A stretch of DNA of 42,635 nt from Calothrix anomala FACHB-343 (GTDB taxonomy: Bacteria; Cyanobacteriota; Cyanobacteriia; Cyanobacteriales; Nostocaceae). The stretch spans positions 1 to 42,635 of the forward strand of contig NZ_JACJQG010000081.1 in NCBI RefSeq assembly GCF_014696435.1, read 5' to 3'. Under the pieces are notes generated by a model. The model was given only the letters and a program-made list of their open reading frames with translations. It had not been told where the DNA came from and did no database searches. Below, in pieces: positions 10,072-39,161 of the stretch; the first letter of the stretch is position 1, and every line of letters begins with the position of its first letter. The position numbers and the translations under genes are program-made.

Positions 10072-10926
10072 TTAATTCATCTCATTTGGGCAAAAATGAG
10101 ATTGTTCAAACTTCACTCCAGGATTAAGTTTTGCATGAAAATTAATTCCAGATTTACCTTTATTATTTACTGAATAAGCTGCAACTAAATTTGCCATTTT
10201 CCCATCTGTGAAATGCACTGTACTATTTGAGGAATCAAATACATAATTTCCACTGCCAAAATTATTAGAAGAATACCTACCTCTACCATCAAGCTGGATT
10301 TTACCCAAGGGGCTAGGGTTAGGCTGAGGAAGAACTATACCTCCCGGGCCAGTGAAAACAGTTAAATAATAGCAGCTGTAAGTTCCTGCTAGTGCTGGTT
10401 GAGTAATTTCTGAATTGGCTGTAACAGAACCATTATTTGTTAATTGTTGAATTATTCTCGTGACTTTTTGAAAATTTTTTTCATCACCTTGACTTTTAAA
10501 CAATCGAGATGCTGCTTTTAAATCTGCAATACCCCTTTGTTTATCTCCTTGTTTAATATAAGTGAGACCTCGACCAAAGTAAGCAGTAGATACATATTTA
10601 CTAGATAAATTTTTATCTATTACCTGGTTAAAATAACATAGCGCTCTAGCATAATCTTTATTTTCTAATCTTTGCCAACCATTTTTTATAAGAAATTCTT
10701 GTAATTCGTGAACATTAGAAGGACTAGGTTCTGCAATGTCTCTGCTTACTGCATATACATCTTCTAATGTTGAAGATTCTGATGCTTGTAGCGAACATTT
10801 CATTGATTCACCAAGATTATGAAAGACATCTTTAAAGGTACGTTGTCCGTAAGCCGGAATAGACGCAAAAGTTAAAGCAGTTAAGGTTATACAGCTTCCG
10901 AAAGTTTTCCAGATTAAACGCTTCAT
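10072..10926 (-). CDS. Secreted TPR protein with an unassigned C-terminal domain (copy A)
   Basis: 284 aa. Signal peptide MKRLIWKTFGSCITLTALTF then ASIPAYGQ. Central TPR-like helices (about 75-165: AYFGRGLTYIKQGDKQRGIA). A conserved C-terminal domain (about 175-284) begins GTYSCYYL, contains SPLGKIQLDGRGRYSSNNFG and FTDGKMANLVAAYS, and ends SHFCPNEMN. Two cysteines at its ends could pair. The paralogue downstream on the same strand (11453-12309) shares all parts, so this is a local duplication. I do not know the C-terminal domain's function. The location is periplasmic or extracellular. The protein is likely linked to the neighbouring TPR-CHAT protein only by proximity. Confidence 0.8.
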   Translation of the reverse strand: MKRLIWKTFGSCITLTALTFASIPAYGQRTFKDVFHNLGESMKCSLQASESSTLEDVYAVSRDIAEPSPSNVHELQEFLIKNGWQRLENKDYARALCYFNQVIDKNLSSKYVSTAYFGRGLTYIKQGDKQRGIADLKAASRLFKSQGDEKNFQKVTRIIQQLTNNGSVTANSEITQPALAGTYSCYYLTVFTGPGGIVLPQPNPSPLGKIQLDGRGRYSSNNFGSGNYVFDSSNSTVHFTDGKMANLVAAYSVNNKGKSGINFHAKLNPGVKFEQSHFCPNEMN

Positions 10927-11452: not shown

Positions 11453-12019
11453 TTAAGTATTAACTTTTGGGCAATAATGGGACTGGTCAAAATTAATTCC
11501 CGGATTAAGTTTTGGCTCAAACCTAATTTTCGGATTACCATTCTCATCTATAGAATAAGCCGCAACTGCATCTGCCATTTTTCCATCTGTGAAACGCACT
11601 ATTCCCTTGGAGGAATCAAAGATATAATTGCCAGTGCCAAAATTTTTAGAAGAATACCTACCTCTACCATCAAGCTGGATTTTTCCCAGTGGGCTAGGTG
11701 TAGAAAGAGGTAAGGTTCCAGGTCCCATTAATCGCATTAAGTAATGGCAACTGTAAGTTCCTGCTATTGATGATTGAGTACTTTGGGTATCGGCTGTAAC
11801 AGAAGTATTATTTGTTAATTGTTGAATTATACCAGTAACTTTTTGGAAATTTTTGGCATCACCTTGACTTTGAAAAAGTTCTGCTGATTTTCTTAAATCA
11901 GTAAGAGCTTCTTGTTTCTTTCCTTGGTTTTTGAGAGCTATTCCACTACCAAAATAAGCATAGGGAAGCAAGCGAAATTTATTTGGAGATTTATCCACCA
12001 TTAGTAGCATTTTTGCCAT
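11453..12019 (-). CDS. Secreted TPR protein copy B, C-terminal part (frameshifted)
   Basis: 188 codons in the -1 frame relative to 12001-12309. It holds the TPR segment (AYFGSGIALKNQGKKQEALT) and the same C-terminal domain as copy A (GTYSCHYL, SPLGKIQLDGRGRYSSKNFG, SHYCPKVNT). Alignment with copy A shows the two halves are one gene split at 12019-12025. On its own this half has only the internal ATG at 12019-12017 and no signal peptide or Shine-Dalgarno. Its codons are not degraded, so either the shift is recent, a sequencing error, or it is recoded. Confidence 0.7.
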   Translation of the reverse strand: MAKMLLMVDKSPNKFRLLPYAYFGSGIALKNQGKKQEALTDLRKSAELFQSQGDAKNFQKVTGIIQQLTNNTSVTADTQSTQSSIAGTYSCHYLMRLMGPGTLPLSTPSPLGKIQLDGRGRYSSKNFGTGNYIFDSSKGIVRFTDGKMADAVAAYSIDENGNPKIRFEPKLNPGINFDQSHYCPKVNT

Positions 12020-12309
12020 AAAAAATGTGATTCTGCTTCTTTATGTTTTTGATCTTTCAATGCTTGAGAACCCATTTTTAAAAGTTGTTCTGGAGTATAT
12101 AATCCTTGTTTTGGAGGTGGTAGCTTTTCTGCTACTTCTTGAATAGTTTCACTATTTTTTTCAATTACATTGCGGACAAATTCTTCTATTGAAGAACCAT
12201 CAGCATAAAGTTTTCCATCATTAGTTTGTGCATTCACAGGAATAGAAACAGTAGTCAGTGCAGTTAATGCTATACAAACACCGAAATATTTCTTGCTTGA
12301 ACGTTTCAT
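12001..12309 (-). CDS. Secreted TPR protein copy B, N-terminal part (frameshifted)
   Basis: 102 codons with signal peptide (KYFGVCIALTALTTVSIPVN then AQ) and the first TPR helices (YTPEQLLKMGSQALKDQKHK). A good Shine-Dalgarno (AAGGAG, 8 nt before ATG) supports the start. The frame runs through the T6 tract at 12025-12020 and stops five codons later (WQKCY, TAA 12003-12001), while the homologous continuation is in the -1 frame. If the frameshift is real and not bypassed, this would release a short secreted stub of about 75 residues. Confidence 0.65.
   Translation of the reverse strand: MKRSSKKYFGVCIALTALTTVSIPVNAQTNDGKLYADGSSIEEFVRNVIEKNSETIQEVAEKLPPPKQGLYTPEQLLKMGSQALKDQKHKEAESHFLWQKCY
12019..12025 (-). 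other. -1 slippery heptamer T TTT TTA at the split
   Basis: On the minus strand the zero frame reads TTT (12024-12022) TTA (12021-12019) preceded by T, which is the X XXY YYZ slippery type. A -1 slip here joins the N-terminal frame to the ATG-GCA-AAA frame that continues the homology with copy A. Loss of one T from a T7 run explains it equally well. Only a weak possible stem is seen downstream. Confidence 0.5.
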
Positions 12310-12548: not shown

Positions 12549-15500
12549 TTACGTCGATTCTCCAATCAAAGTAAACGCCGCCCAATCTTTAGGGTCAGAA
12601 TATTTTTTCATCGTAATTAACATAGCTTGACGTAGTGCTTGAGCTTTATCAGGTGTCTGCTGCATTTGTCGATAAAACTCCGTCATTAATAACTTGGTAG
12701 ATTCATCAGGTACACTCCATAAAGACACAATTACACTAGGAACACCTGCTGCAATTAAAGAGCGAGAAAGCCCAATTACTCCATCACCTTTAATATCACC
12801 TTGTCCTGTTTGACAAGCACTCAATACTACTAGTTCGGCTTTTAATTTCATGTCAAAAATTTCACTAGCAGTCAACAGACCATTTATCTTTTCGTTTTTA
12901 GAGGCGGAAGACTTATCAGGAGCAAGAACTATAGCGCCCGGTATACCAAAGCCAAAATCATTAAGCAATCCATGAGTTGCCAAATGAATAAATCTGGCAT
13001 TTTCCATCTGTTGCTTGACTACAATTTTGGTAGCGTCTTTACCAGTTAAAGCTTTAGTTTTGAGCATCTGAGCTATTTCACTAGCTTCTTTTTCTGCATT
13101 CGGTAAATTTCCTAATTGTTGTTGAAATACATCAGGTATTGTGGGATTACCAACAACTAACGCCCCAGTTCCTGTGACTTGTTGGCGTTGTTTATGCGTA
13201 AGTTCTAATACCTGAATTGCTGGCGCAGTCAGAATAGTATGTTTTTCAATTAGGTATTTATTTTGCTCGTCTTTAAGTGCAGGGAAGGGAACTAAAAACA
13301 ATTCGTTTTGGGGAATGAAAATTACCTTTTCATTGGGATTTGTAGGTAAATATTGAGCAATGGGTTGAATTAACAGTTGATATAGCTTTTCGTTAACGTT
13401 ATATTCTGATTTAAAAAGGCCACGAGAATCATCTACTACTCCAATAGATAGACGACTGGTTGCAACTAAATTTTTTAAAGGAATATTGATTTCTTGAGAT
13501 GTAAATTCTATCTCACCAGTTGGTTTAACTACCCAAATATAAATTTTCTGCCCATCCCATGTTCGTTTTTGATCATCATTTTTGGGAAGTTTAGGAACTG
13601 TATATTCAACAATAGTTGCATTTTGTTTCTTGGCAATTCTTTGAATGTTTTGAAGTTTTATGGTGGGTGGGATTTCAGTTATTACAGGACTTAATTTGTC
13701 ATCCCCTTTACCTGATTGCCGACTGTATAGCAATTGAATAAAAGCTCTAGCTCTACCACCTTCAGCTACTTCTAATGCTTCTTCAGGTTTATTAGTGGCA
13801 ATTAAAACCTTCTGTAACAAATCATAAGCGTGAGTCTGATTATCAAAAATAGTGATTTGAGAATCGTCTGGTAAAACTTCTCGTATTGAATTAAAAACAC
13901 TGATTGCTCTATATAAAGCAGTAGTAGCTTCAGGTAGCTTTTTCGCAACAATGGCAGTGATACCACTTGCATAAAATACTAGTGATTCTAGCAATTGATC
14001 GTCACTTTGCTTGGCAAATTCTCCAGATTGGTTGTAATAATCAATTGCTTTATCATATTTTTCTTGTTGCTCATAAAATTGACCGACATAAAAATACACA
14101 TGAGGCTTAAATTGTAACCCTTCAAAAGTATCAGTAAGTTTTAGGGCTTTTTGAAAACTTTCCCAAGCACGCTCATTGTCTCCTAATTGCGCGTAAGCTG
14201 TACCAATTCTAGAAAGAGTGATTGCTTCTAAATTTGGGTTACCTTTTGTAGGGAATGTTTCTAATTCCTCCTGTGCTTCTTTTAACTCTTTTCTTACGTT
14301 CTCTAATTCTGCGGCAGATTTAGCAGATTTGTTATAGATAGTGGGTTGATATTTGAGAGATAAGTTTTTGACTGCGGGAGATGTTTTCGGACAATCCTCT
14401 TTTGCCTTATCAGGTTGATTAAGGTGTATATAAGTCAACTGAATCAGTCCACAAATGCCCGTAATTCCTGACTTGACAATTTTTTTGTCCGCCTCAAATA
14501 TCTGTTGTTCATAACTGTTTACTTTGATTTTATTAGCCAAATTATCAGCTTCTATTAATGTTGCTAATCCTTGTTTATAAAATGTTAATGCTTGCTGAAA
14601 ATTTTTAGCTTTCAGCATATATATATTGCCCATATTCATTAACATAAATCCTTTGGTTTTTCCTTGATTAAATCTTTTTAAAAGGGAATTATGAACTTCG
14701 GAATTCATAATTTTTAGGGCTTTTTCATAATTTGATATTGCCTGTTTTGTGTTATTCAAATTTCCATAGATACTGGCTAAATCTGAATAGGTTTCTCGAA
14801 GTTTTGACCGATAATGATTCCCTGTTTGGAAAATGAGCAAAGCTTGTTGAACGGTTTTTAAAGCAGTGGAATATTGACCCTGAGAATTGTATATTGATCC
14901 CAATGATAAGAATATGCTTCCTTGTTGAGTGCGATCGCCTATTTCTTTCGCAATAGTTAAAGCTTCTTGATAAACTTCCAGGGAATGATTTATCAATTCA
15001 TTACCATTTGGATCTTTCTTAAGAAGAAGAAATGTACCCAGTGTATTGTAAAGTCCAGCAAGAGCAGATAGAAGACTGCTTTCTTGTTTGCGAAGACGTA
15101 ATTTATCTTCAGAAGAACCGTTAGCTTTTCGTAAAGCAACCAAAGCTTTCTCTAAAAAATCAATTGCTTTTACTAAGCCATCCGTGTTTGCAGAAATTGC
15201 ACCTAAACTTCTCAATGCAAGTGCTTCTGTTTCATAGTTTTTGCTTTGTTGAGCCACTGCTAAAGCTTTTTTACTGTACTGCTTTGCCAGATCAGGATTT
15301 CCCAACTTTAAGTAAGCAAGTCCCCAATTGCTCAACACTCTTGATGTTAAATCAGTATCATTAATAGCTTCAGCAATGTCTAAAGCTTTTTGATAGTAAG
15401 TAATCGCTTTTTTGTGATCCTCAAAATCACTGTAAACATCACCAATTCTTCTGAGTGCTTTACCTTCTCCCTGACGGTTTTTAATTTGACGATAAATTCC

Positions 15501-15743
15501 CAAAGCTTTTTCAAAAAGCTTTAACGCCGCTTGATTTTGATAGCTATCGAATAGTTCATAGCCTTCTTTGAGTAGTCTATCCGCTTCGGTTTTGCGATTA
15601 TTGGTGCTTTGTGCTGATGCTGGCGCAGTTCTCAAGGGTACTAGTTCTAAAGCGCCCAAGGGAAATGTGAGGTATAGCACCAAAGATGCAAGGGTGAGGC
15701 TTTGAAAGGGTTGAACTATAGAAAGATAAGGACTACGACGCAT
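12549..15743 (-). CDS. TPR-CHAT protein (putative cysteine peptidase)
   Basis: 1064 aa. A hydrophobic N-terminal segment (SLTLASLVLYLTFPLGALEL, then ASAQS) looks like a signal peptide. About 60-650 are TPR repeats (GEGKALRRIGDVYSDFEDHK, KAITYYQKALDIAEAINDTD). The C-terminal CHAT domain, about 760-1064, has the clan-CD dyad His924 (HLATHG) and Cys977 (SACQTG), followed by GVIGLSRSLIAAGVPSVIVS and the terminal DWAAFTLIGE. Family knowledge: CHAT domains are caspase-like, and some TPR-CHAT proteins are activated by partner contact. Substrate unknown; the signal suggests action outside the cytosol. It lies between secreted TPR proteins and the divergent sigma-like operon. Confidence 0.93.
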   Translation of the reverse strand: MRRSPYLSIVQPFQSLTLASLVLYLTFPLGALELVPLRTAPASAQSTNNRKTEADRLLKEGYELFDSYQNQAALKLFEKALGIYRQIKNRQGEGKALRRIGDVYSDFEDHKKAITYYQKALDIAEAINDTDLTSRVLSNWGLAYLKLGNPDLAKQYSKKALAVAQQSKNYETEALALRSLGAISANTDGLVKAIDFLEKALVALRKANGSSEDKLRLRKQESSLLSALAGLYNTLGTFLLLKKDPNGNELINHSLEVYQEALTIAKEIGDRTQQGSIFLSLGSIYNSQGQYSTALKTVQQALLIFQTGNHYRSKLRETYSDLASIYGNLNNTKQAISNYEKALKIMNSEVHNSLLKRFNQGKTKGFMLMNMGNIYMLKAKNFQQALTFYKQGLATLIEADNLANKIKVNSYEQQIFEADKKIVKSGITGICGLIQLTYIHLNQPDKAKEDCPKTSPAVKNLSLKYQPTIYNKSAKSAAELENVRKELKEAQEELETFPTKGNPNLEAITLSRIGTAYAQLGDNERAWESFQKALKLTDTFEGLQFKPHVYFYVGQFYEQQEKYDKAIDYYNQSGEFAKQSDDQLLESLVFYASGITAIVAKKLPEATTALYRAISVFNSIREVLPDDSQITIFDNQTHAYDLLQKVLIATNKPEEALEVAEGGRARAFIQLLYSRQSGKGDDKLSPVITEIPPTIKLQNIQRIAKKQNATIVEYTVPKLPKNDDQKRTWDGQKIYIWVVKPTGEIEFTSQEINIPLKNLVATSRLSIGVVDDSRGLFKSEYNVNEKLYQLLIQPIAQYLPTNPNEKVIFIPQNELFLVPFPALKDEQNKYLIEKHTILTAPAIQVLELTHKQRQQVTGTGALVVGNPTIPDVFQQQLGNLPNAEKEASEIAQMLKTKALTGKDATKIVVKQQMENARFIHLATHGLLNDFGFGIPGAIVLAPDKSSASKNEKINGLLTASEIFDMKLKAELVVLSACQTGQGDIKGDGVIGLSRSLIAAGVPSVIVSLWSVPDESTKLLMTEFYRQMQQTPDKAQALRQAMLITMKKYSDPKDWAAFTLIGEST

Positions 15744-16071
15744 AGATGAATTGTCAAGACACTGAAATTACCTACATATATCTTTGGCGGTTGGGGGGTT
15801 ATGTAAAAGTTTTGTAAATCATCAAATCCATTTTTCGCCAATGAACTCTTAATATCAATCAAAGTGCTGTATCTGAAGCGGAAATGGTTCATCCAAAAAA
15901 TACATAACTTCAAATTCTCCAAAGATATAGCTAAGTAGAGAATACGGGAGTCCATTAACAGGTAATGTATATTCAGAAATTTGGCAAAATACTGCCGTTT
16001 AGACGAGCTAGGTGCGATTTTATCAAACCTAACTCAATCTCACTAGTGAAAACACGAATAAACTATCATTT
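15744..16071. other. Divergent intergenic region, no gene seen
   Basis: 328 bp between the TPR-CHAT gene (minus) and the sigma-like gene (plus). It must contain promoters for both, but no confident boxes, operator or repeat were recognised. The minus-strand frame here lacks protein-like composition. Confidence 0.5.
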
Positions 16072-17466
16072 ATGGTAGCCAAAAAGCATCTGAATCGAGC
16101 AGGGATAGATAGAGCATCTAAATATTGGCTCTTAATTAGTATCAATAGTTTTGCTCGTAGTTGTTGTCATGAACTGATGCAGAATAAAGCGTTTTTCTTG
16201 CAACAGTTTTCCGGGGTACTTGAGCAAGAAAATATACCAGACAGGGATATTCAGCGCCAACTGATACAGTTATATCGTCATGATGGAAATCTTCAGGAAT
16301 TGGCGCTGGGTTGTCTGCGCTGCTTTATTTCTCACGAATTTAAGGCGATTTGTGAGGGTTTAACTAGTCAATTTGGCAAAACTCATGATTTTACTCTTGA
16401 GGAGATGTTACCACTGGTGCTGGATGGCGATCGCAGAAACGCTAATCATGCTCAATCCCTGACTATGAAGATTTTAGAGACTTTTGACCCAGAAAAAAGT
16501 AATTTATCAACTTGGACAAACAGGATACTCAAGAGCGATCGCACTGTCAAACAGTTTTTACTAGAACATGGTATCGAACAAGTCACAGATTGGATGATTC
16601 TCAACTACACCACACCAGGAAACCTCGCTCGGATTTTATCAAATTACCAGCGCACACAAATTGAAATTGACCGAGCCATCCAACTTCTCAATAGTTATCA
16701 CCAAATTTATCGCACCCATCTATTACAAATTAGAAAAAATGGTGCTAAAACTAGATATCCAGAGCCGACTTGGAAACAATTGCAACAAATTGCAAATTTA
16801 TATCAAGAAATCACTGCTCCTGAAGAAATCCGCGAATGTCTGCAAAATCTTGCTCAGTTAATTCGCGCAGAACGCATCCGTGCTAAACAAGGGTTACCTC
16901 GTTTAACTCCTTTAGTAGATGATAACCAAATTTTCATTCCCGAAATCTCTGAGGAACCATTAGCATTTTTAGCCAAATATCACCAAAATTTCGAGCAATG
17001 TCTGATTAGTGCTGCTTTTTTAGTCATTCGAGCTAGATTTGATTATTTACAAGGTAAAAAGACCCCTAAATCTTTACAAAAGGCAGAAAAATATATTCAA
17101 GCTCTGCATTTATTTCATTGTTGCGGAGTTTCAATGACAGAAATTGCTCAACAATTAGATTTAACGGATCAACCAGAAGTGAGTCGATTATTAGCATTGA
17201 AAAATTTACGCATTGATATTGGTCGCAATACTTTATCCTGTTTACTTGAATGTGTTAATGATATAGCACAAACTTATGTTCATCCCAGCCAAATACTAGA
17301 ACTAGACTCAAAAATAAAAGCTATCCTGGATGAAGAAATTCAAGCTGTAATGGAAAAAGCGAGAATAGATGCAAGTACGGGAGCAAAGCAACTCATCCAC
17401 AACCAGTTGGCTAAAGCTATTTGCGAATATCTCTGCACGCGCATAGAAATTAGAAAAAGGACTTAG
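16072..17466 (+). CDS. Sigma-factor-like / HTH protein of the DUF1822-CHAT cluster
   Basis: 464 aa, predicted soluble and helical. A C-terminal segment (about 343-395) CGVSMTEIAQQLDLTDQPEV followed by SRLLALKNLRIDIG resembles the region-4 helix-turn-helix of sigma-70-type factors. The middle (LQKAEKYIQALHLFHCCG) resembles sigma-like helices. Canonical region 2 motifs are not evident, so calling it an active sigma factor is inference. It heads a co-directional set: the DUF1822 gene starts 4 nt after its stop. It is likely a regulator of this locus, or a DNA-binding anti/alternative sigma relative. The ATG follows an AT-rich leader without a clear Shine-Dalgarno. Confidence 0.6.
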   Translation: MVAKKHLNRAGIDRASKYWLLISINSFARSCCHELMQNKAFFLQQFSGVLEQENIPDRDIQRQLIQLYRHDGNLQELALGCLRCFISHEFKAICEGLTSQFGKTHDFTLEEMLPLVLDGDRRNANHAQSLTMKILETFDPEKSNLSTWTNRILKSDRTVKQFLLEHGIEQVTDWMILNYTTPGNLARILSNYQRTQIEIDRAIQLLNSYHQIYRTHLLQIRKNGAKTRYPEPTWKQLQQIANLYQEITAPEEIRECLQNLAQLIRAERIRAKQGLPRLTPLVDDNQIFIPEISEEPLAFLAKYHQNFEQCLISAAFLVIRARFDYLQGKKTPKSLQKAEKYIQALHLFHCCGVSMTEIAQQLDLTDQPEVSRLLALKNLRIDIGRNTLSCLLECVNDIAQTYVHPSQILELDSKIKAILDEEIQAVMEKARIDASTGAKQLIHNQLAKAICEYLCTRIEIRKRT

Positions 17467-17470
17467 TATT

Positions 17471-18721
17471 ATGTATGTACATCATGATGAAACGGATTAT
17501 TTTTTAGAATTCAGTCAAATTTCTGAATCTATTACTTTAACAGCAGAATATTTTACTGAAGCTAGTAAGCGTAGTTTAAACTATCATAATCAATCGAAAC
17601 AATGGCAGATTTATTTACAGTTTTTAACTTATTTCGCTTGTAGGGAATGGTTAGCAGAACGGGAACCAACACTGAAAATTAATCAAGATGAATTGATAAC
17701 TTGGCAAGCTCAATATGCAGATGTAATTAATACTGCATTTAATCTATCTATTGGTAAATTTAAAGTTTGTTTAATTCCCAATCTTGATTTTAGCGATTTA
17801 GAGGTTACTATACCCAGAGCATTATTAGATTTACCAGAATTTAATGCTCATTTTTATATAGTTATTAATATTGAGGAAGAAATAGAGTTAGCTATTATCA
17901 GGGGATTTTTACGCTATGACGAAATCAGCCAATATCAACCACAACTAAAACCAGATTTAGATTGGAATTATCGCTTACCGCTAGATTGGTTTAACAGCGA
18001 TGCTAACGACTTATTGCTGTATTTGCAATGTCTATCACCTTCGGCAATTACTTTACCAGAAATTCCGCGCGATCGCCAAAATTTTCTCGCCACAATTTCA
18101 TCAGAATTATTAACACTATTACTGCAATTACGTAACTCTCCTCTGTGCAAAGTTTTGACTTGGAAACAGGGAATAGAAGTACTAACAACGCCAGATTTAT
18201 TACAAATTGTCACCCAGCCAGCCGTTAATGTTAGGTCATGGTTAAATCATCAATTACATCAAGCAATCCCAGAATTATCTTGGCAAGTATTAGCACCATT
18301 TACACCATTCCTCAGCGCCAATCAAACCCCTGAACAAGAATTAGACAATATTCTCACTCACATTCAAACTACACATAATATAGATATTCCCCCAACAGCA
18401 GGGCGAGCTTATCAAGAAATAGAATTAGAATGTTTACTACGCTTATATGCTGTCACTTGGTTATTACCAGATGATAACTCTGGCTGGAATTTACTATTAA
18501 TTTTGAAGACTATTACAGATAATAACTCTTCTACCTCTGGATTTACATTGCGAGTCATTGATAAAACCGAGATTTTGGTAGAAGAAGAATTACAACCTCA
18601 GCAGCAGGATTATATCTTTACTCTCGTTGAGGGAAGTTACGACGATCAATTTTTAGTGAATATTACATCTGCTAACGGACAAACGCAAACATTACCGCCA
18701 TTAGAGTTTAATGGTCAATAG
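17471..18721 (+). CDS. DUF1822 family protein
   Basis: 416 aa. The N-terminal third has the DUF1822 pattern: a WQIYLQFLTYFACREWLAER segment, then a small beta region (FYIVINIEEEIELAIIRGFL) and QPQLKPDLDWNYRLPLDWF, typical of these cyanobacterial proteins of unknown function. The C-terminus (RVIDKTEILVEEELQPQQQD) is beta-rich. No signal peptide or TM helix, so probably cytosolic. It starts 4 nt after the sigma-like gene and is certainly co-transcribed with it; this pairing suggests the two act together. The stop codon overlaps the first heptamer of a short tandem repeat. Confidence 0.85.
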   Translation: MYVHHDETDYFLEFSQISESITLTAEYFTEASKRSLNYHNQSKQWQIYLQFLTYFACREWLAEREPTLKINQDELITWQAQYADVINTAFNLSIGKFKVCLIPNLDFSDLEVTIPRALLDLPEFNAHFYIVINIEEEIELAIIRGFLRYDEISQYQPQLKPDLDWNYRLPLDWFNSDANDLLLYLQCLSPSAITLPEIPRDRQNFLATISSELLTLLLQLRNSPLCKVLTWKQGIEVLTTPDLLQIVTQPAVNVRSWLNHQLHQAIPELSWQVLAPFTPFLSANQTPEQELDNILTHIQTTHNIDIPPTAGRAYQEIELECLLRLYAVTWLLPDDNSGWNLLLILKTITDNNSSTSGFTLRVIDKTEILVEEELQPQQQDYIFTLVEGSYDDQFLVNITSANGQTQTLPPLEFNGQ

Positions 18722-18769
18722 TCAGTGGTCAATGGTCAATGGTCAATAGTCAATGGTCATTTGTCATTG
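18721..18769. repeat. Heptamer short tandem repeat, 7 units
   Basis: GTCAGTG, two GTCAATG, GTCAATA, GTCAATG, GTCATTT and GTCATTG run without gaps, starting in the DUF1822 stop codon. The intergenic stretch to 19078 also holds the palindrome GGTGTGTTG...CAACGCACC (18964-18991) and four AAATGAC units (19039-19066, the reverse-strand GTCATTT) ending 12 nt before the next start codon. Confidence 0.85.
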
Positions 18770-19078
18770 GTTGGTAGCTTGATAGTTGCTGCTTAATAGT
18801 TGGTATCGCTGGCATGTTTGTTAAGTAATATTAAGATATTGCATCTCAAATGATTATTTCTCCGTAAATTTCTACATATCCTCCCCCTCATGAGAGATAT
18901 GTGAGTTTGAGTAGATAATCTATCTACCAACTTTGTTTAACCTAACGGTAACACGTAGTGTAGGGTGTGTTGTCGCGCAGCGCAACGCACCAAAGTCGAG
19001 AATACTACACATACTGACTTTGATGGATTGTATTTATCAAATGACAAATGACAAATGACAAATGACAACTAAAAAATC

Positions 19079-21595
19079 ATGACGACAACGCGAACATTTT
19101 TTAACCTAACAGTGACTCGCATTCAATCAGTATGTCAATTTGAATTACAAGGAGAAGGACAAAAAATTACCGAACAAGTTGATTATCCTTTATCATTAAC
19201 TCAACGTTATGAAGATTGGCAAAGAGCTTATTTAGATTATTATCGACATTTACGGGGACGTAAAACTATCCAAGATTTGCAAAAAAAAGAATTACCTAAT
19301 ATTCATCTGCGTGGCTGGAATGTAATTAATAAAAATTTTCGCGGCAGAAAAGTAATTAGCGGTGTTGGTAAAATTACAGTAGACCGTAGCAAACAACTGA
19401 AAGATGCAGAAGCTCAATTTTTAGATGAATTTTATCGCTGGCTGTTGAGTCCTGATTTAATTAATATTCGCCGTGAGATTGCGAATGCGGCGCGAAAATT
19501 AGCAGATAAATATCAATCTGTTGAAGTATTCTTAACTTGTAACCCCATAGAAATAGCTAGATTACCTTGGGAAACTTGGGAAATTGGCACAGATTTAGGT
19601 ATTCCTGAAAAAATTAAAATTTACCGGACTCCGGCGACTATTCGCAATCAACCTATCCGTCCGTTAAAACGTAAAGCGAGAATTTTAGCTATTATTGGCT
19701 ATGATACGCATTTAAATTTCCAAGCCGATAAACAAGAATTAGAATCGCTGGATTCAATTGCATACATTGAATTTGTTGGTTGGAATACGAAAAAATCTAA
19801 AGTACTTAATGCCGATAATGAAACAGAATTAAAAACAGAAATATTTAATGCAATTAATGATAATAAAGGCTGGGATATTTTATTTTTTGCTGGACATAGT
19901 AACGAAAATATTTTAACTGGGGGAGAGTTATATGTAGCGCCCAATGTTTCTCTAGGAATTCAAGATATTGCAGAAGTATTGAAAAAGGCGCAAGCTAGAG
20001 GACTACAGTTTGCAATTTTTAACTCTTGTAGTGGATTAAATATTGCTGAATCATTAATTAACTTGGGTTTAAGCCAAGTAATTGTGATGCGAGAACCAAT
20101 ACACAATCACGTAGCACGTAAATTTTTAGTGCAATTTGTCAAGAGTTTAGCAGAATTTAAAGATGTTCATCAGGCTTTGTTAGATGCTTGTCAATATCTC
20201 AAACAACAAGTTACGCGATTTTCTTACCCTTCTGCTTATCTTGTTCCTTCACTCTATCGTCATCCAGATGCAGAACTATTTCGCCTGAAATCCTTTGGTT
20301 TTTGGAATGCGGTTAAAAAATGGTTACCAAAACCAAAATATGAAAGTTGGCTATTATTGCTTTTATTAATTAGTTTACTGCCTAATGTCCAAGATTTTTT
20401 CTTAGATAAGCGGATCTGGCTGCAAGCATTTTATCGCCAGTTTACCCATCAATTCTATAAACAAGAGTCTCCTTTAGTTTTAGTAAAAATTGATAATAAA
20501 TCACTAAATGAAGATAAAATTAAACAAGTTTATCCTTTAGATTATAGTTATTTAGCAAAGATAATTCAAAAACTATCTCAATCGAATTCGCAATTAATCG
20601 GTATCGATTATATTTTAGACCAAGGTGGACAGCAACCACAGCAAACTAAACTACTCAATCAAGCAATTCGTGGTGCTGTATCTCAAGAAAATTGGTTTGT
20701 ATTTGGGGCGTTGTCTACTGAAGATGAAAATATAAAAGAAACTGTCACTGCTGATATCGCCAGTTTGAATTGGAGTATGGCGGGTGATGTTTATATTGCT
20801 AGATGGTATGTTGAGTTACCAACAAAGATAAATAATGATAAAAATTACCCTTTTAGCTATCTTTTAGCCTTAGCTTATGCTGTACAACATCAAAAGTCAC
20901 AAAATTCATTATTTGCTGATTTACCTAAACCTCAATTATCTAGCCAACATGATTTTCGCAATACTATTACTCAACCAATAAAATCGTCAGATGCAAGATA
21001 TAATTTTTTGCAAAACTTGCGCTTACATCCCTTATCTAATTTGCAACAATCTTTTCAACCAATTCTTGACTTTTCTATTCCTCCTAGCCAAGTTTACAAA
21101 AGTATCTCGGCTTGTGAGTTACTTGGTTCTTGCGAATCAACAACCCAAATACATCATGACTTAAAGAATAAGGTAGTAATTATTGTTCCATCTGGATATA
21201 AACAAGCGGGAATTAGAGGTAAGGGTGAAGACAATGAAACTGTACCTCCAGCAATTTCTTTTTGGAATGGGTGGGGAGATGGTATATTTTCTCGAAGCGC
21301 AGCCCATGCTTACATGGTTCACCATTTACTCACCCAAAGATTAGTTGTACCTGTACCGGATTTTTTGATGATTTTAGTAGGTGCTTTGTTAGGTAAAGCA
21401 GTTACTTTAATTATCATTGAAAAACCTCGCAATCAGGTAAAAATATTTAAGATATTCTGGGGTGGATTAGTCATTTATCTTTTGAGTTCATTACAAATTT
21501 ATACCTCAGCAGCGATTTTACTCCCCTGGTTTTTTCCTTCATTGACTTTCGGTATTTACATCCTAATTGCTACAAGGAGAAACATTCGTGAATAA
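19079..21595 (+). CDS. CHAT-CHASE2 fusion membrane protein
   Basis: 838 aa. N-terminal region of unknown type (1-130), then a CHAT domain (about 140-410) with LPWETWEIG, His273 in FFAGHS and Cys317 in FNSCSG, both in the right order for clan-CD peptidases. A TM helix follows (about 423-437, WLLLLLLISLLP), then an extracytoplasmic CHASE2 domain (about 455-745; PLVLVKIDNKSL, LIGIDYILDQ) and C-terminal TM helices (about 761-835). Predicted arrangement: cytosolic peptidase-like domain controlled by an outside sensor. This is inferred from domain order. No Shine-Dalgarno; tandem AAATGAC heptamers form the leader. It overlaps the DUF928 gene by 8 nt. Confidence 0.88.
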   Translation: MTTTRTFFNLTVTRIQSVCQFELQGEGQKITEQVDYPLSLTQRYEDWQRAYLDYYRHLRGRKTIQDLQKKELPNIHLRGWNVINKNFRGRKVISGVGKITVDRSKQLKDAEAQFLDEFYRWLLSPDLINIRREIANAARKLADKYQSVEVFLTCNPIEIARLPWETWEIGTDLGIPEKIKIYRTPATIRNQPIRPLKRKARILAIIGYDTHLNFQADKQELESLDSIAYIEFVGWNTKKSKVLNADNETELKTEIFNAINDNKGWDILFFAGHSNENILTGGELYVAPNVSLGIQDIAEVLKKAQARGLQFAIFNSCSGLNIAESLINLGLSQVIVMREPIHNHVARKFLVQFVKSLAEFKDVHQALLDACQYLKQQVTRFSYPSAYLVPSLYRHPDAELFRLKSFGFWNAVKKWLPKPKYESWLLLLLLISLLPNVQDFFLDKRIWLQAFYRQFTHQFYKQESPLVLVKIDNKSLNEDKIKQVYPLDYSYLAKIIQKLSQSNSQLIGIDYILDQGGQQPQQTKLLNQAIRGAVSQENWFVFGALSTEDENIKETVTADIASLNWSMAGDVYIARWYVELPTKINNDKNYPFSYLLALAYAVQHQKSQNSLFADLPKPQLSSQHDFRNTITQPIKSSDARYNFLQNLRLHPLSNLQQSFQPILDFSIPPSQVYKSISACELLGSCESTTQIHHDLKNKVVIIVPSGYKQAGIRGKGEDNETVPPAISFWNGWGDGIFSRSAAHAYMVHHLLTQRLVVPVPDFLMILVGALLGKAVTLIIIEKPRNQVKIFKIFWGGLVIYLLSSLQIYTSAAILLPWFFPSLTFGIYILIATRRNIRE

Positions 21596-22331
21596 ATTGA
21601 AATTATTACAGGCTATTTTGTTAACTAATGTATTGATTGCTAATTTTGGCTTGACAATATCTAGCGCAGCTACTATTAAAAAACAACTACCGCAAAATTC
21701 AATTAGTAATCCAAATAATAATTTTATATCCTTGGGACTGAGGGATTTATGGACATTGTTAAGGCGTCCAAAAGTTCCTGCTGGCGGAAGAGAGCCAAAA
21801 CTTTGCGTCATTTCACCGCAAACTTTAGTAGATTCTACTGTACCAACAAATATAAATGCAAATACGCCTATAGAGATTTGGAGTTTAAAACCCTTATTTC
21901 TTTGGAATATAAAACAAGGAGATGTCAAGCTCATTGAGTTATTTAAAGCAGGTGTTAAAGAACGTATTTGGCATAAAGAAATTTCTCCAGGTCAAACCAG
22001 CATTATATATGATGGTGAACCACTACAACCAGGTCAGGTATATAATTGGCGGTTACATATTCCTTTCCCTGTAAAACAGCCATCTTTTCAAATTATGGGA
22101 GAAGAAAAGCGGAATCAAATTGCTAGTGAATTGCAACAAATCGAAGCTAAATCTAAACAGCAAGGAACTATGACAGAGACGATAGCTTTAGAAAAAGTAG
22201 ATTTGTTTGTGAATAAGCAAATGTGGGCGGATGCATTAAGGGAAATTTATGCTGTACCAAATCCATCGCCAGAACTAAAGGAGATTCAGCAACAAATTCC
22301 CTCTTTTGATTATTGTTCATCAAATAAATAA
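21588..22331 (+). CDS. DUF928 family secreted protein
   Basis: About 247 aa from the GTG at 21588, chosen because AAGGAGA ends 7 nt upstream; a TTG at 21567 would put seven residues before it. Signal peptide: KLLQAILLTNVLIANFGLTI then SSAA. The mature protein has the DUF928 features PKVPAGGREPKLCVISPQ and WHKEISPGQTSIIYDGEPLQ, then PGQVYNWRLHIPF, and a helical tail. It is translationally coupled to the CHAT-CHASE2 gene, so it is the best candidate for a periplasmic partner of the CHASE2 domain (inference). Biochemical function unknown. Confidence 0.85.
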   Translation: MNKLKLLQAILLTNVLIANFGLTISSAATIKKQLPQNSISNPNNNFISLGLRDLWTLLRRPKVPAGGREPKLCVISPQTLVDSTVPTNINANTPIEIWSLKPLFLWNIKQGDVKLIELFKAGVKERIWHKEISPGQTSIIYDGEPLQPGQVYNWRLHIPFPVKQPSFQIMGEEKRNQIASELQQIEAKSKQQGTMTETIALEKVDLFVNKQMWADALREIYAVPNPSPELKEIQQQIPSFDYCSSNK

Positions 22332-22672
22332 GTAGGGCGGTGCAATTAAACATAACTGGTGTTCGCGTAGCGTCTCCGACAGGAGAGGGCTGTCATTTGT
22401 CATTTGTCATTTGTCATTGGTAAGGGTTTTAAGCCAGTTTACGTAAAATACATAGTTTGGTTTTCTTCCACCGACTTACTTACACCTACTGCTATGAGAG
22501 ATGATTTAGCAAGTAAGCCTTAAGTTCTAGTCAGTTTAGCACCGAGAAAGATGGTGCGTTACGGCTAATTCTCACTCTCTTAAGTTCCGAAATTTTTTCA
22601 CAGCCTTAACACACCCTACTTATACCAATTGTCTGTAAAACAAATTGCATTGCAAGAAAGAACATAGTTATT
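22332..22672. other. Intergenic region with repeats
   Basis: Contains an AAGTAGGGYGGTGCAATTAAA repeat (22330-22350, shared with 29120-29168 inverted), four GTCATTT/G heptamers (22392-22419) and a palindrome GGTGCGTTACGGC...GCCTTAACACACC (22553-22615). No gene and no clear promoter is seen; the caspase gene may have its own promoter here. Confidence 0.6.
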
Positions 22673-24835
22673 ATGAAACGTCGTCATTTTTTACAATTCT
22701 CTACCTCAACTTTAGCTACTTTAGGTTTGAGCCAGTTTGATATTTGGCAAAAAGGAAATCGCTATGGACAAGTTTTAGCCCAGGATACAGGACGGAAGCT
22801 GGCGTTATTAGTGGGGGTTAATAATTATCCTAAGCTGGAAAGGAGTAATCTTTATGGCTGTATTACCGATGTAGATTTACAGCAAGAATTATTAATTCAT
22901 CGCTTTGGTTTTAATCCTAATGATATTATGAGATTAACCAGCGATCCAGAAGATGAACCACCTACTCGTAAGAATATTTTAGAAAAATTTGAAAACCATT
23001 TAATTAAACAAGCTAAACCAGGGGATGTGGTAGTTTTCCACTTTTCTGGACATGGTTCTCGTCTGGCTGAATTTGACGGGAGTACGGTAAATGATGATGA
23101 TTATAATAGTACTTTAGTGACAGCAGATGTTGGCAATGAGCCTCTAGCTAGAGATATTACGGGGCGGACTTTATTTTTGCTAGTTTCGGCTTTAAATACA
23201 GAGAATGTAACGGTAGTATTAGATAGTTGTTATTCTGGTGGTGGAACAAGGGGAAATTTAGTTATCCGTTCGACTCTGAATAATGATAGAAAAGTATCGG
23301 AGGAAGAAATTGCTTATCAAAAAGATTTGATGAAACGGCTGAATATTAATGCCGAAGAATTAGCGAGAAGGCGTAGAGATAATCAGCGTAAGGGTGTAGT
23401 TTTAGCCTCAGCGCAAGGAGATCAAGTGGCGGCTGATGCTAGTTTTGGTGATTTTCATGCTGGTGCATTTACTTACTTATTAACGCAATATTTATGGCAA
23501 CAACCTGGTAATGTAGGTAGTGCGATCGCGCAAGTTACTCCGGTGCTAAACTCAGTCTACAGGCAGACTCCGCGAGTTGATGGGCAAGCAAATCAGCCAG
23601 TATATTTTATTAATAACAGAATTCCCCCAACTGATGCCGTAATTATTCAAGGTAATGGCGATAAAGCGACTTTGTGGTTAGGGGGAGTAGATCAGGAAAG
23701 TTTAGACACCTTTAGAGAAAAGGCTACTTTTGCAATTGTGAATCAACAGGGTGAAGTCTCTGGAGAAGTAGAGTTAGTTTCTCCGCGTCGCGGTTTAAAA
23801 GCGGAAGCAAAACTGATCAAAAAAGATAATGTTACTGCTTTAAAATCGGGAATGTTGCTACAAGAATTAACACGCATAGTCCCCAAAAATTTAAAGTTAA
23901 ATATTGGTTTAGATCTATCTTTGGGTAAAGATATTAATAAAGCGAAGCAAGCACTAGAATCTATCAATCGAATTCAAGCGATCGCACCCCAAAAGCAAAA
24001 CCCACCTTATCCCAATGGCGTGCAATATATTTTCAGTCGCATCACACCTGCTTATCGCCAAAAATTGCAGGAGCAATCCCTCACTAAGTTACCAGATGTA
24101 AATAGTTTGTGTTTATTTACTGAAGGTGGGGAACTAGTATTAGAATCTTTTGGGAATGCTAGCGAAACAGTAGAAGATGCGGTAAAAAGATTAAATCCAA
24201 AATTGAAGTCAATGCTAGCAGCGAGTATTATCAAAAAAACCCTCAATAGCAACTCTTCAGCCTTGGATGTAGAAGCGGGAATATATTTACTTGATGAACC
24301 TGGGAAAATGGTAGCCAGAACTGCAACGAAACGCCACCTTAATAATCGGGGAAATGCAGAGGAAATCTATTCTCGCAAGGTGATTTTAAAAAAACAGTTT
24401 CAGTTCAGCGTCACAAATAACGAATCAACTCCCGTTCATTTTGCGATTTTGCTATTTGATTCTACTGGTGATTTATTAGTTGTATTTCCTTATGAATGGG
24501 CTGTAGCTGAGGAGTCAATGGTATTACCCGCAAATAAAACTGTCAATGTTGGTAATCCCATCCAAGCGATTGATAAAGGTACAGGAGAAGCGTTAATTAT
24601 CATCAGTAAAAAACCCTTAAAGAATGCAGTCAAGACATTATCAGCTTTAGCCAGAGAACAAAAGCGCGATCGCGGCACATTAATATTAAGAGGTGAAACC
24701 AGAGGTGCAGATGAGATAATGGGCGATTTATTGAGCGATTTAACAGATGTGCGCGGTGGGATTGTTGTTCAGCAAGCTACGCCGATAAGTAATTCTGATA
24801 CCGCTACCTTGTCAATTAGCTTCGATGTTGGTTGA
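22673..24835 (+). CDS. Caspase-family (metacaspase-like) protein with DUF4384
   Basis: 720 aa. The start KRRHFLQFSTSTLATLGLSQ is a twin-arginine type signal (RRxFLQ), so export folded to the periplasm is likely. The peptidase p20 domain (about 40-320) opens KLALLVGVNNYPKL, has the catalytic His127 (FSGHGS) and Cys186 (DSCYSGG), and continues to GVVLASAQGDQVAADASFGD (p10-like). A C-terminal DUF4384 domain (about 570-690; FQFSVTNNESTPVHFAILLF, VFPYEW) is common in such proteins. Metacaspases cleave after Arg/Lys and are linked to stress death or housekeeping. It lies at the end of the sigma-like/DUF1822/CHAT-CHASE2/DUF928 series. Confidence 0.93.
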   Translation: MKRRHFLQFSTSTLATLGLSQFDIWQKGNRYGQVLAQDTGRKLALLVGVNNYPKLERSNLYGCITDVDLQQELLIHRFGFNPNDIMRLTSDPEDEPPTRKNILEKFENHLIKQAKPGDVVVFHFSGHGSRLAEFDGSTVNDDDYNSTLVTADVGNEPLARDITGRTLFLLVSALNTENVTVVLDSCYSGGGTRGNLVIRSTLNNDRKVSEEEIAYQKDLMKRLNINAEELARRRRDNQRKGVVLASAQGDQVAADASFGDFHAGAFTYLLTQYLWQQPGNVGSAIAQVTPVLNSVYRQTPRVDGQANQPVYFINNRIPPTDAVIIQGNGDKATLWLGGVDQESLDTFREKATFAIVNQQGEVSGEVELVSPRRGLKAEAKLIKKDNVTALKSGMLLQELTRIVPKNLKLNIGLDLSLGKDINKAKQALESINRIQAIAPQKQNPPYPNGVQYIFSRITPAYRQKLQEQSLTKLPDVNSLCLFTEGGELVLESFGNASETVEDAVKRLNPKLKSMLAASIIKKTLNSNSSALDVEAGIYLLDEPGKMVARTATKRHLNNRGNAEEIYSRKVILKKQFQFSVTNNESTPVHFAILLFDSTGDLLVVFPYEWAVAEESMVLPANKTVNVGNPIQAIDKGTGEALIIISKKPLKNAVKTLSALAREQKRDRGTLILRGETRGADEIMGDLLSDLTDVRGGIVVQQATPISNSDTATLSISFDVG

Positions 24836-24841
24836 TTATAG

Positions 24842-24946
24842 GTCATTTGTCATTTGTCATTTGTCATTTGTCATTTGTCATTTGTCATTTGTCATTTGTC
24901 ATTTGTCATTTGTCATTTGTCATTTGTCATTTGTCATTTGTCATTG
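24842..24946. repeat. GTCATTT heptamer array, 15 units
   Basis: Fourteen perfect GTCATTT units (24842-24939) and a final GTCATTG, starting 6 bases after the caspase stop codon. This is a typical cyanobacterial short tandemly repeated repetitive sequence; copy number is likely to vary between strains. The rest up to 25082 holds no gene. Confidence 0.95.
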
Positions 24947-29804: not shown

Positions 29805-32800
29805 ATGTTACTACGTTTAATTACTATTAGCGCCCTCCTAACATTATTTGCACCATCCTTACTCTTTCATAATTCAGCATCAGTTATTGCCCAAGCACCA
29901 ACGCCAACGGCTGAGGAAAAAATTACCGAAGCGATTACCTTAAATAGTAATGGCGAAGGAATGGTATATAAAGATTTAGTTGGTTTAGGGGATTTGCAAG
30001 CTGGGTTAGAAATGTTCCAGCAAGCGTTGGCGATTTTCAAAAAATACAATGCAAAAGCAGGGGAAGCTAACGCCCTTACCAATATCGGCTATGTTTATCT
30101 GCGTCAGGGTAAATATTCTCAAGCGCTGGAGTTTTTGCAACAATCTTTAGCTATCCGTAAACAAGCACGAGATACCCAGAATGAATGGATACCTTTGTCC
30201 TATATAGGAGAAGTATATACCAATTTAGGTCAATATCCCCAGGCAGTTGAAGCTTATCAATCAACTTTAACTATTCTCAAACAACTGCAAGCTGCTAACC
30301 CTAAAGATTCCAGTTATCCTACAAGTCAACGCATTCTGCTGGCGGATACTGGGGCTGTATATTTTAGGATGGGTCAATATCAAAAGGCTTTAGAACTTTA
30401 TCAACAAAGTTTAGCAATTTACAACGCTAATAGCGATCGCGCTGGTAGTGCGGAGACTTTAAATAATATTGGTGTTGTTTACATTAATTTGGGTAACTAT
30501 ACTCAAGCGCTAGATGCTTACCAACAAGCTTTAACTCCGATTCAAGACTTTTGTTATCAACAAAAATCGACTTGCTTTTATGGTACAGAAGCAGCAATTT
30601 TAAATAATCTTGCAGGCGCTTATTTTAGCTTGGGACAATATCAAAAATCTTTAGAATTAGCGGAGAAATCTGCCAATATTTACAAAAAATTCCGCACTGG
30701 GGAATATAAAGGTACAAATAAACAAGATATAAAATTACTCTACGATGCTCTCGGACAAAATCCCCAAGCTTTACAACAAGTTAGCAGTCGCGCGAATGTT
30801 GGCGATGCTTTTGGTAAAGATTCGTTTCAATTTCAAGGGGAAGCATTGAACCTGAATAATATCGGGCAAATTTATTTTAGCCAAGGTAAGAATGAACAAG
30901 CACTGAGGCTATATCAACAGGCTTTAGCTATTTATCAAGAAAATAAATATCCCCAAGGAATTGCTGTCACCTTAAATAATATTGGGCGAGTTTACGCTAG
31001 TACCGGGAAATATAACCAAGCTATCGAGTCAAATCAGCAAGCTTTGACTAATTATAAAACAGTAGGCGATCGCACTGGCGAAGGTGTCACCCTTAGCAAT
31101 ATCGGACAAATTTACCAGCAGCAACAGCAGTATGAAAAAGCTACCAGCTTATATCAGCAAGCTTTAGCTATACACCGGGAAGTGAGCGATAAAGTCAGCG
31201 AAGCTGCTACACTGAAGTATTTAGGGGATGTGTTAGCCCAACAAAATCAACCACAATTAGCGATCGCATTCTACAAACAATCAGTTAATCTTACCGAAAC
31301 TATCCGCCAAAATTTGCGCGTTGTTCCTACAGATATTCAAAAATCCTATACAGAAACAGTCTCGGAAAGGTACCGCCGATTAGCTGATTTATTACTCAAG
31401 CAAAACCGTTCAGCTGAAGCGCAACAAGTTTTAGATTTACTGAAAATTCAGGAAGTGCAAGATTTTCTGGGTAATAATCGTGGGAGTAATCAAACAATAA
31501 CAGCTAATCGTGCTTCTCAGCCAGTACAAAACTTACCCTTAAAACCGCAAGAACAAGAAATATCGCAAAAATATAGCGCCATTCAAGATAAAGTAATTCT
31601 CTTAGGTAAAGAACTTACTACTCTCCGCAAAATTAATCCTAAAGAACGCACCTCAACACAAGAAAAGCGCATCGCCGAACTAGTACAACTTGAGCAACAA
31701 GCTACCGCCGAATTTAACAAATTTATCAAAAGTCCAGCTGTAGTTGCTTTAACTCAGCAATTATCTACAACATCAAGTCAAGAAAACCTCAGTTTACGCC
31801 AACTAAATTCACTGCGGGATAATTTACGCCAGTTAAATAACAAAGCTATTCTCCTTTATCCCTTAGTTTTAGAAGATAGGTTAGAATTAGTCATTGTTAC
31901 AGCAGACACACCACCGATTCATCGTACAGTAGCCGTAAAAAAACAAGAGTTAGAGCAAACAATTGAAGAATATCGGCAAAAAATCCAAGTACCTCGTAAT
32001 AATATCAAACAGCCAGCACTTAAATTATATAGCTGGCTAATTCAACCTATAGAAAATGAACTTAAACAAGCCGATGCAAAAACAATTATTTATGCTCCCG
32101 ATGGACAATTAAGATACGTTCCCTTAGCTGGATTATTTGATGGAAAAGAATGGCTAGCACAAAGATTTGTAGTCAATAACATTACATCTGCAAGTCTCAC
32201 CAAATTTGACAACAAACCCCCGAAAAATATTAACGTTTTAGCAGCAGCTTTTACCCAAGGCGATTATACAGTCAAACTAGCCAATCGCGCCGAAGTTTTT
32301 CAAGGATTACAATTTGCTAAAACTGAAGTAGAAACCTTAGCTAAAACAATTCCTGGAACTAAAATAATCTTAGATAAACTATTTAGTCCAACAGCAACAA
32401 TTCCCCAAATGAACGATTATAAAATTGTCCATTTGGCAACTCATGGATATTTAGTTAAAGGGAGTCCTGAAGATTCTTTTATTTTATTTGGTGATGGCGA
32501 ACATGTTACTTTACGGGATATCGAAAATTGGTCTTTACCCAATGTTGATTTAGTCGTTTTAAGTGCTTGTCAAACAGCATTAGGAGAAAAATTAGGCAAT
32601 GGACAAGAAATTCTTGGTTTAGGATATCAAATTCAACTAACAGGAGCCAAGGCATCTATTGCTTCATTATGGCCTGTATCTGATGGCGGTACACAGGCTT
32701 TGATGAATGTATTTTATCAAGAATTAAAATTGGGTAAATTAACAAAAGCCGAAGCCTTACAAAAAGCCCAAATAGCTTTAATATCCGGTAATTATTCAGC

Positions 32801-39158: not shown

Positions 39159-39161
39159 GAA

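Follow-up and report, generated by a model that had tools for sequence, protein, structure and literature searches.

The stretch of DNA analysed here, the window, comprises 42,635 nucleotides (nt) of Calothrix anomala FACHB-343 (NCBI RefSeq assembly GCF_014696435.1, contig NZ_JACJQG010000081.1, positions 1 to 42,635), whose draft genome measures 9.24 Mb in 144 contigs. Our subject is a set of genes on its plus strand that encode a sigma-like protein, a DUF1822 protein, a membrane protein with CHAT and CHASE2 domains (CHAT-CHASE2), a DUF928 protein and a caspase. The sigma-like gene (16072..17466, + strand) encodes 464 amino acids (aa) with a region-2-like FDPxxSxLxTW motif and a C-terminal helix-turn-helix. 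It is followed by the genes for DUF1822 (17471..18721, +; 416 aa; PF08852, E 2.2e-44, 152.5 bits), CHAT-CHASE2 (19079..21595, +; 838 aa; Pfam CHASE2 E 5.8e-16, CHAT E 1.5e-7) and DUF928 (21588..22331, +, GTG start; 247 aa; PF06051, E 3e-7), and by that for the caspase of the C14 kind (22673..24835, +; Peptidase_C14, E 2.5e-21), which begins with a twin-arginine-like KRRHFLQ. An earlier note, made from the sequence alone, had described these five co-directional genes; all five open reading frames (ORFs) are present, and the Pfam matches agree with its labels DUF1822, CHASE2, CHAT, DUF928 and caspase.

The sigma-like and DUF1822 genes are separated by 4 nt (17467-17470), and the CHAT-CHASE2 and DUF928 genes overlap by 8 nt (21588-21595), with the Shine-Dalgarno sequence AAGGAG of the DUF928 gene (21574..21579, +) lying inside the CHAT-CHASE2 gene; both junctions are read in the sequence as the earlier note had given them. 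The two remaining gaps measure 357 nt (DUF1822 to CHAT-CHASE2) and 341 nt (DUF928 to caspase), and because both carry heptamer repeats, separate promoters are possible in this genome. A tandem array of 14.9 perfect GTCATTT copies lies 3' of the caspase gene (24842-24945), and further heptamer repeat sites of the window are at 18710, 19038, 22391, 29088, 33650 and 39162.

The order of the first four genes recurs in cyanobacteria. We compared 60 loci, each the best sigma-like match of its genome by score (the window's own genome excluded), and 73 loci from a scan of named genomes, all cyanobacterial by title and overlapping with the 60 and with plasmid records, to 19 control stretches taken arbitrarily at round coordinates from 13 of the 60 genomes. 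Gene labels came from profiles made with sequences of the window and its relatives. Many of the 60 loci sit on short contigs, and the stretches reach at most ~9 kb to each side, so that gene absences are partly truncation. DUF1822 is the next same-strand gene after the sigma-like gene in 55/60 loci, CHAT-CHASE2 follows in 49/60 and a DUF928-like gene in 35/60 (34 in a slightly narrower count). Similarly, DUF1822 comes next in 64 of the 73 loci, one of which lacks a sigma-like label, with CHAT-CHASE2 in 45 and a DUF928-like gene in 29. None of the 19 controls contains DUF1822, DUF928, TPR-CHAT or caspase genes; one CHAT-CHASE2-like gene and one S8 peptidase gene were found among them. Fisher tests of loci against controls give p values from 5e-14 (DUF1822) to 0.04 (caspase). 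The sigma-like, DUF1822, CHAT-CHASE2 and DUF928 genes thus form a conserved cyanobacterial operon, their order being in large excess over controls.

Close spacing is common within this operon. Of the 55 adjacent pairs of sigma-like and DUF1822 genes in the 60 loci, 14 share an overlap of exactly 4 nt and 35 are spaced within 50 nt of each other. The same limit holds for 30/43 adjacent pairs of DUF1822 and CHAT-CHASE2, so that the window, with its 357-nt gap at this junction, is unusual. An overlap between CHAT-CHASE2 and DUF928 is seen in 31/35 adjacent pairs and measures 8 nt in ten of them and 14 nt in eight; long overlaps can be overcalled here because ORFs were taken from the first ATG/GTG/TTG.

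The window's own genome has 19 distinct DUF1822 places (20 rows, two of which are one ORF in stretch L022). At 15 of them a sigma-70 relative lies directly 5' of DUF1822, recognised in 12 cases by NCBIfam at E < 0.01 (9 over the cut-off) and in the other three, among them that of the window, as a member of the divergent family described below. Three places (L019, L025, L026) have instead a gene of 231-250 aa with no NCBIfam match at E < 0.01, and at another (L015) the adjacent ORF runs in the opposite direction. CHAT genes often adjoin DUF1822 in this genome. At one further locus (L024) the sigma-like, DUF1822, CHAT-CHASE2 and DUF928 genes are followed by one for a two-partner-secretion exoprotein (L024:13649-18202), and another (L020) carries the same operon with an inserted TPR-CHAT gene, its stretch ending inside or at DUF928; no caspase gene was seen within these two stretches. 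The operon is also found on plasmids of Nostoc, Tolypothrix, Calothrix, Leptolyngbya, Pseudanabaena and Acaryochloris, several of which are typed mobilizable or conjugative, and the set is present in Cyanobium.

Loci of Calothrix brevissima NIES-22 (L215) and C. membranacea FACHB-236 (L216) contain a TPR-CHAT gene and the five genes in the same order as the window. The ratio of nonsynonymous to synonymous divergence (dN/dS) of the five genes is 0.15-0.44 against the former and 0.15-0.27 against the latter (~0.39 for TPR-CHAT), and the five genes are under purifying selection. Two non-coding stretches are conserved as well. The leader 5' of the sigma-like gene (15881..16071, +) is identical at 187/191 positions in C. 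brevissima and at 165/191 in C. membranacea, where the preceding 137 nt agree at 63/137. A block before CHAT-CHASE2 (18843..18926, +), which contains the inverted repeat ACATATC...GATATGT, is 95% identical in C. brevissima, and its positions 18848-18925 are 94% identical in C. membranacea; by DNA similarity the block was not found at other fetched loci.

The sigma-like protein and its operon neighbours

Single-sequence searches with the sigma-like protein gave nothing above cut-off in Pfam, and its match to the NCBIfam sigma70-ECF model (TIGR02937) reaches only E 0.048 and 13.3 bits against a curated cut-off of 42.9. When a profile of 12 relatives was aligned by hhalign with one of eight sigma-70 proteins from DUF1822 loci, however, the match had probability 99.1 and E 1.8e-18, over 261 columns that cover both region 2, with the region-2-like motif, and region 4, with the C-terminal helix-turn-helix. 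A rerun with 73 sigma-like sequences gave probability 98.8 and E 4.1e-17. The eight reference proteins consist of six that were scanned (sigma70-ECF, E 6.4e-20 to 1.8e-33) and two annotated sigma-70 factors. By profile comparison, the sigma-like protein is a divergent sigma-70 relative, homologous to that family in regions 2 and 4; the label given to it in the earlier note holds at this level and lacks significant support in the single-sequence search. Members of the family are annotated "hypothetical protein" in nine annotated plasmid stretches, and of the 388 genomes sampled from the class, 129 contain a match to the family profile (E <= 1e-5).

CHAT-CHASE2 is laid out as an N-terminal domain, CHAT, a hydrophobic segment at residues 423-443, CHASE2 (429-772 in Pfam) and further hydrophobic segments at 750-783, 787-805 and 810-832. 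Its CHAT domain carries the catalytic His-Cys dyad of CHAT/caspase-fold proteases as His273 (codon 19895-19897) and Cys317 (codon 20027-20029). The dyad is kept in 73/73 nonredundant relatives, and its completeness supports the earlier note's view of CHAT as a protease. Mean identity to the window protein is higher in CHAT (53%) than in CHASE2 (35%).

The DUF928 protein has a hydrophobic N-terminus (residues 4-30) and is probably exported. Export-like N-termini, called by a simple hydropathy rule rather than by a signal-peptide predictor, are found in 62/69 DUF928 and 76/84 TPR-CHAT proteins, compared with 5/131 sigma-like and 6/122 DUF1822 proteins. Based on these N-termini and on the hydrophobic segments, the sigma-like protein, DUF1822 and CHAT are predicted to be cytosolic, and DUF928, CHASE2 and TPR-CHAT to lie outside the cytoplasmic membrane. 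This agrees with the earlier proposal of CHAT and CHASE2 on opposite membrane sides and a secreted DUF928. We further note that protein distances are correlated among all four core members (53 loci; r 0.72-0.88, shared ancestry included).

Accessory proteases and other features of the window

The caspase, which the earlier note had placed in the set, is accessory to the operon. The 341-nt gap before its gene and its presence anywhere in the stretch at only 11/60 and 4/73 loci rule it out as a core member, so that the conserved adjacency of five families, proposed there as a check, is borne out for the four core genes (60 and 73 loci, overlapping sets, against 19 controls) but not for the caspase. 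The window caspase contains GHG (126-128) and DSCYSG (184-189) motifs, and its C-terminus shows a weak DUF4384-like match (E 0.0027, below cut-off). Among 15 caspases of the family, the strict GHG motif is found in 14 and the Cys motif in 8. A twin-arginine-like motif of the KRRHFLQ type is present in 11/15; on this motif rests the export of these proteins, and the caspase is possibly located outside the cytoplasmic membrane.

Divergent from the operon, and left out of the gene set as the earlier note drew it, is a gene for a TPR-CHAT protease (12549..15743, - strand; CHAT E 1.2e-72), which is likewise accessory, and variable. Its product has a hydrophobic N-terminus (16-39) and is probably exported; it carries HLATHG (920-925) and SACQT (975-979), and relatives keep the His motif in 76/84 and the Cys motif in 74/84 cases. 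All three cysteine proteases, CHAT-CHASE2, TPR-CHAT and the caspase, therefore retain His and Cys motifs in the window. TPR-CHAT genes occur anywhere in the stretch at 23 of the 60 and 34 of the 73 loci. A fixed divergent position was rejected, as only 2/55 and 5/66 of the loci that have a gene upstream show a directly divergent TPR-CHAT there; when divergent genes for TPR-CHAT, caspase or S8 are counted up to three genes upstream, the figures are 7/60 and 15/73. Proteases of the S8 family (12/73 loci) were also rejected as specific partners, occurring in 4/60 loci and 1/19 controls (p 0.65). In very distant relatives at 21-27% identity, four Cyanobium records and one cyanobacterium, an opposite-strand TPR-CHAT lies directly upstream (L282, L283, L287) or two to three genes away (L285, L286), which suggests that this arrangement is old.

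TPR-CHATs differ strongly between loci that are otherwise near-identical. Between the window and C. brevissima, the sigma-like protein is 94% identical (synonymous divergence, dS, 0.06), DUF1822 94% (0.10) and CHAT-CHASE2 96% (0.11), whereas TPR-CHAT is 61% identical with dS 0.71. The variable part of the window's TPR-CHAT is its TPR middle (~aa 241-588), at 30-44% identity, compared with 82% over the first 80 residues and 75-93% beyond residue 750. We extended the comparison to 18 pairs with sigma-like identity of at least 85% and TPR-CHAT in the same position, which fall into six clusters and are not independent; seven of an initial 25 pairs, with duplicate or near-identical records (L246 for L044, L142 for L045, L143 for L046), were dropped. 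TPR-CHAT dS is the higher in 18/18 pairs and at least three times higher in 12/18; TPR-CHAT identity is below 70% in 12/18 and at least 80% in five. CHAT-CHASE2 differs as strongly (57-61%) in three pairs with one locus (L048). Many loci whose regulators are 88-96% identical carry strongly differing TPR-CHATs in matched positions. The high dS points to exchange with diverged TPR-CHAT copies rather than to fast amino-acid change alone, and a variable cassette of this kind suggests that TPR-CHAT meets changing targets.

Other genes of the window lie to both sides of the set. A two-partner-secretion exoprotein is encoded near it (2623-6909, -), and this family is found at 10/71 loci and 1/19 controls. 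A gene for a CHASE2-adenylate/guanylate cyclase (7038-9260, +), a second CHASE2 sensor, lies ~7 kb 5' of the sigma-like gene. It is followed by two tandem, related TPR-like genes (10072-10926 and 11453-12309, -), the second of which is split over two overlapping frames, its parts 59% and 31% identical, and is possibly a decaying duplicate. Further downstream are another TPR-CHAT gene (29805-32906, +; Pfam) and two very large multi-PAS/GAF proteins with response-regulator domains (34137-42572, +), the first also a histidine kinase (Pfam). An Rfam scan of the window gave no match at the gathering threshold.

A candidate proteolytic switch

We propose that the operon may act as a membrane-gated proteolytic switch for transcription, and give this reading about an even chance. 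Two described systems provide its logic. In type III-E CRISPR, the TPR-CHAT protein Csx29 cleaves Csx30, which at full length binds an ECF-like sigma factor, CASP-sigma, and inhibits it; processed Csx30 fragments showed no inhibition in a reporter (PMC10028731). The CHAT protein HetF of Anabaena reportedly cleaves PatU3, a HetZ-binding protein that limits HetZ (review PMC12288457; PMC7377430). The resemblance to protease-released sigma regulation that the earlier note had pointed out therefore has a precedent in the CRISPR system.

For the operon we infer inhibition, cleavage, a cue and targets as follows. DUF1822 would bind the sigma-like protein and hold it inactive, as the conserved adjacency of their genes suggests. 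CHASE2, outside the membrane, and exported DUF928 would register an envelope or external cue, consistent with the predicted topology and the coupling of the two genes. The cue would activate the cytosolic CHAT cysteine protease via the first membrane segment, and CHAT, so gated, would cut DUF1822 and free the sigma-like protein, since the Csx29 and HetF systems share this logic and the CHAT domain is homologous to that of HetF. Judging from proximity alone, the freed factor would turn on the operon itself and any genes close by whose products are exported, TPR-CHAT and caspase among them. In favour of the switch are the recurrent gene order, the two further copies in this genome, the sigma-70 kinship of the regulator and of the genes 5' of DUF1822 at 15 of 19 places, the invariant CHAT dyad, the predicted topology and the purifying selection. 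On this reading DUF1822 and DUF928 would each gain a role, and the CHAT genes so often beside DUF1822 an explanation. The observation in the earlier note is confirmed and its interpretation partly supported; the gene set is real, and the support for it exceeds what the first reading could show.

Several observations weigh against such a switch. A DUF928-like gene is missing in 25/60 and 44/73 loci, partly through contig ends. The sigma-like protein may no longer bind RNA polymerase, as it has drifted beyond Pfam and NCBIfam recognition. DUF1822 profiles found no convincing relative among solved structures, and a comparison of PatU (30) with the DUF1822 profile at the sequence level gave a probability of 1.1. 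The promoter scan of the region gave no more sites than chance (34 against 34.3 expected), no shared promoter motif was identified, and DNA similarity searches did not find the conserved leader at other fetched loci. An export-like N-terminus by the hydropathy rule is present in only 1/15 caspases. The correlated trees of the core proteins carry no correction for species phylogeny.

It is unlikely, if still worth weighing, that the set is instead a conflict or programmed-death system, in which CHAT autoprocessing and exported caspases and TPR-CHATs would damage the cell or the intruder on attack and the sigma-like/DUF1822 pair would do no more than tune expression. Related EACC2-caspase genes have been placed among conflict systems (Burroughs et al., PMC8195603), and the plasmid copies of the set and the strong differences among TPR-CHATs at near-identical loci also fit this explanation. 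However, the regulatory pair and the sensor are the most conserved part, and a TPR-CHAT, caspase or S8 gene is found in only 29/60 of the stretches, with their limited reach and many short contigs. PADLOC, moreover, called no specific system in the window, its matches up to E 1 being generic TPR models (to TPR-CHAT) and one caspase model.

The homology of the window CHAT to that of HetF (probability 97.4) and the shared logic of protease, partner and regulator could also indicate a developmental or cell-division switch like HetF-PatU3-HetZ, acting in filament or envelope biogenesis. HetZ of the window's genome (L071) has a weak sigma-70 match (E 3.6e-4), and HetZ aligns weakly to a profile of true sigma-70 proteins, with probability 22.8 and over the helix-turn-helix only. 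We nevertheless consider this reading quite improbable: HetZ (30) and the sigma-like profile, like PatU and DUF1822, do not match at the sequence level (probability 1.8), separate hetF and hetZ-patU exist in the same genome, and the set occurs on plasmids and in Cyanobium. A search for hetZ by the HetR site in this genome gave no match. Membership of the set in HetZ-PatU-HetF was rejected on these profile comparisons, the CHAT domain alone being clearly shared, and only the analogy is kept. Finally, it is very unlikely that DUF1822 serves as co-activator or scaffold and that CHAT cuts the sigma-like protein itself to turn transcription off; adjacency, coupling and correlated divergence would fit equally, but in both experimental precedents it is the partner and not the regulator that is cut.

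A broader form of the proteolytic switch is conceivable but doubtful. The operon would then be a widespread, membrane-anchored counterpart of the CRISPR protease switch, in which the CHAT of an envelope sensor frees the sigma-like factor from DUF1822 and which controls swappable, exported TPR-CHAT/caspase cassettes engaged in an arms race. Sensing and the deployment of proteases would then take place outside, and the cut inside.

Comparison with known systems

In DegS-RseA-RpoE, a periplasmic serine protease begins the cleavage of a membrane anti-sigma factor. The likeness lies in the course from an envelope cue to anti-sigma cleavage (also mentioned in PMC10028731); the difference is that our proposal has the cut made by a cysteine protease in the cytosol, on a partner that is soluble. 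The Csx29-Csx30-CASP-sigma system is similar in that a CHAT protease, a sigma-binding inhibitor and an ECF-like sigma are encoded together (PMC10028731), but Csx29 is a TPR-CHAT activated by target RNA via Cas7-11 and not a CHASE2 membrane protein. The CASP-sigma model NF041236 has no match to the window's sigma-like protein up to E 1, and matches DUF1822-linked paralogues below its cut-off (e.g. 30.7 against 100 bits at L009). Csx30 is not among the solved-structure matches of the DUF1822 profile up to E 10, in a library not confirmed to contain it.

In HetF-PatU3-HetZ, too, a CHAT protease of the membrane reportedly cleaves the binding partner of a transcription regulator. HetF, however, has been described as containing TPR and has no CHASE2 in Pfam, and hetF and hetZ-patU are on different contigs in this draft genome. 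The HetF model NF045509 gives window CHAT-CHASE2 15.2 bits against a cut-off of 1200. As neither the HetF nor the CASP-sigma model recognises the set, and kinship with HetZ and PatU was not found, we do not file it as a member of either system.

No literature combining the CHAT domain, CHASE2 and cyanobacteria was found in an open-licence search, in which DUF928 turned up in one paper, on WD40 proteins, and DUF1822 in two. The core association of caspase-CHASE2, ECF sigma and DUF1822 is nonetheless already in print as a prediction: caspase proteins that carry sensors such as CHASE2 were proposed to form a signalling system with ECF sigma and DUF1822 (Burroughs et al. 2021, PMC8195603), which the earlier note overlooked in knowing of no assigned function for the set. 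The EACC2-caspase protein has a constant N-terminus and a variable C-terminal part, CHASE2 being among the variants, and most TRADD-N-free EACC2-caspase neighbourhoods adjoin an ECF sigma gene and DUF1822 (PMC8195603). That study proposes autopeptidase activation, not DUF1822 cleavage; its main text has no mention of DUF928 or HetF.

A profile of eight CHAT proteins of other DUF1822 loci (seven from the same genome, one from a plasmid) matches the CHAT-CHASE2 family with probability 100 and E 4.2e-49 across the N-domain, CHAT and part of CHASE2, and the set is for this reason best seen as a divergent branch of the predicted EACC2-caspase/ECF sigma/DUF1822 kind. It shares the adjacent DUF1822 (55/60 loci), and the place of the ECF sigma may be taken by the divergent sigma-70 relative (by profile only, below the TIGR02937 cut-off). 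It differs in its unrecognised regulator branch, translationally coupled DUF928, frequent protease neighbours and cassette behaviour. Apparently new are the unrecognised sigma-like branch, the coupled DUF928 and the strongly differing TPR-CHAT cassettes beside a near-identical regulator; exchange of these cassettes was not met in the literature here, no search having been aimed at it. If the proposed switch is correct, it would represent a general form of cyanobacterial signalling, in which an envelope-activated caspase-like protease controls a sigma-like factor, with HetF and the CRISPR switch as two instances of the same principle.

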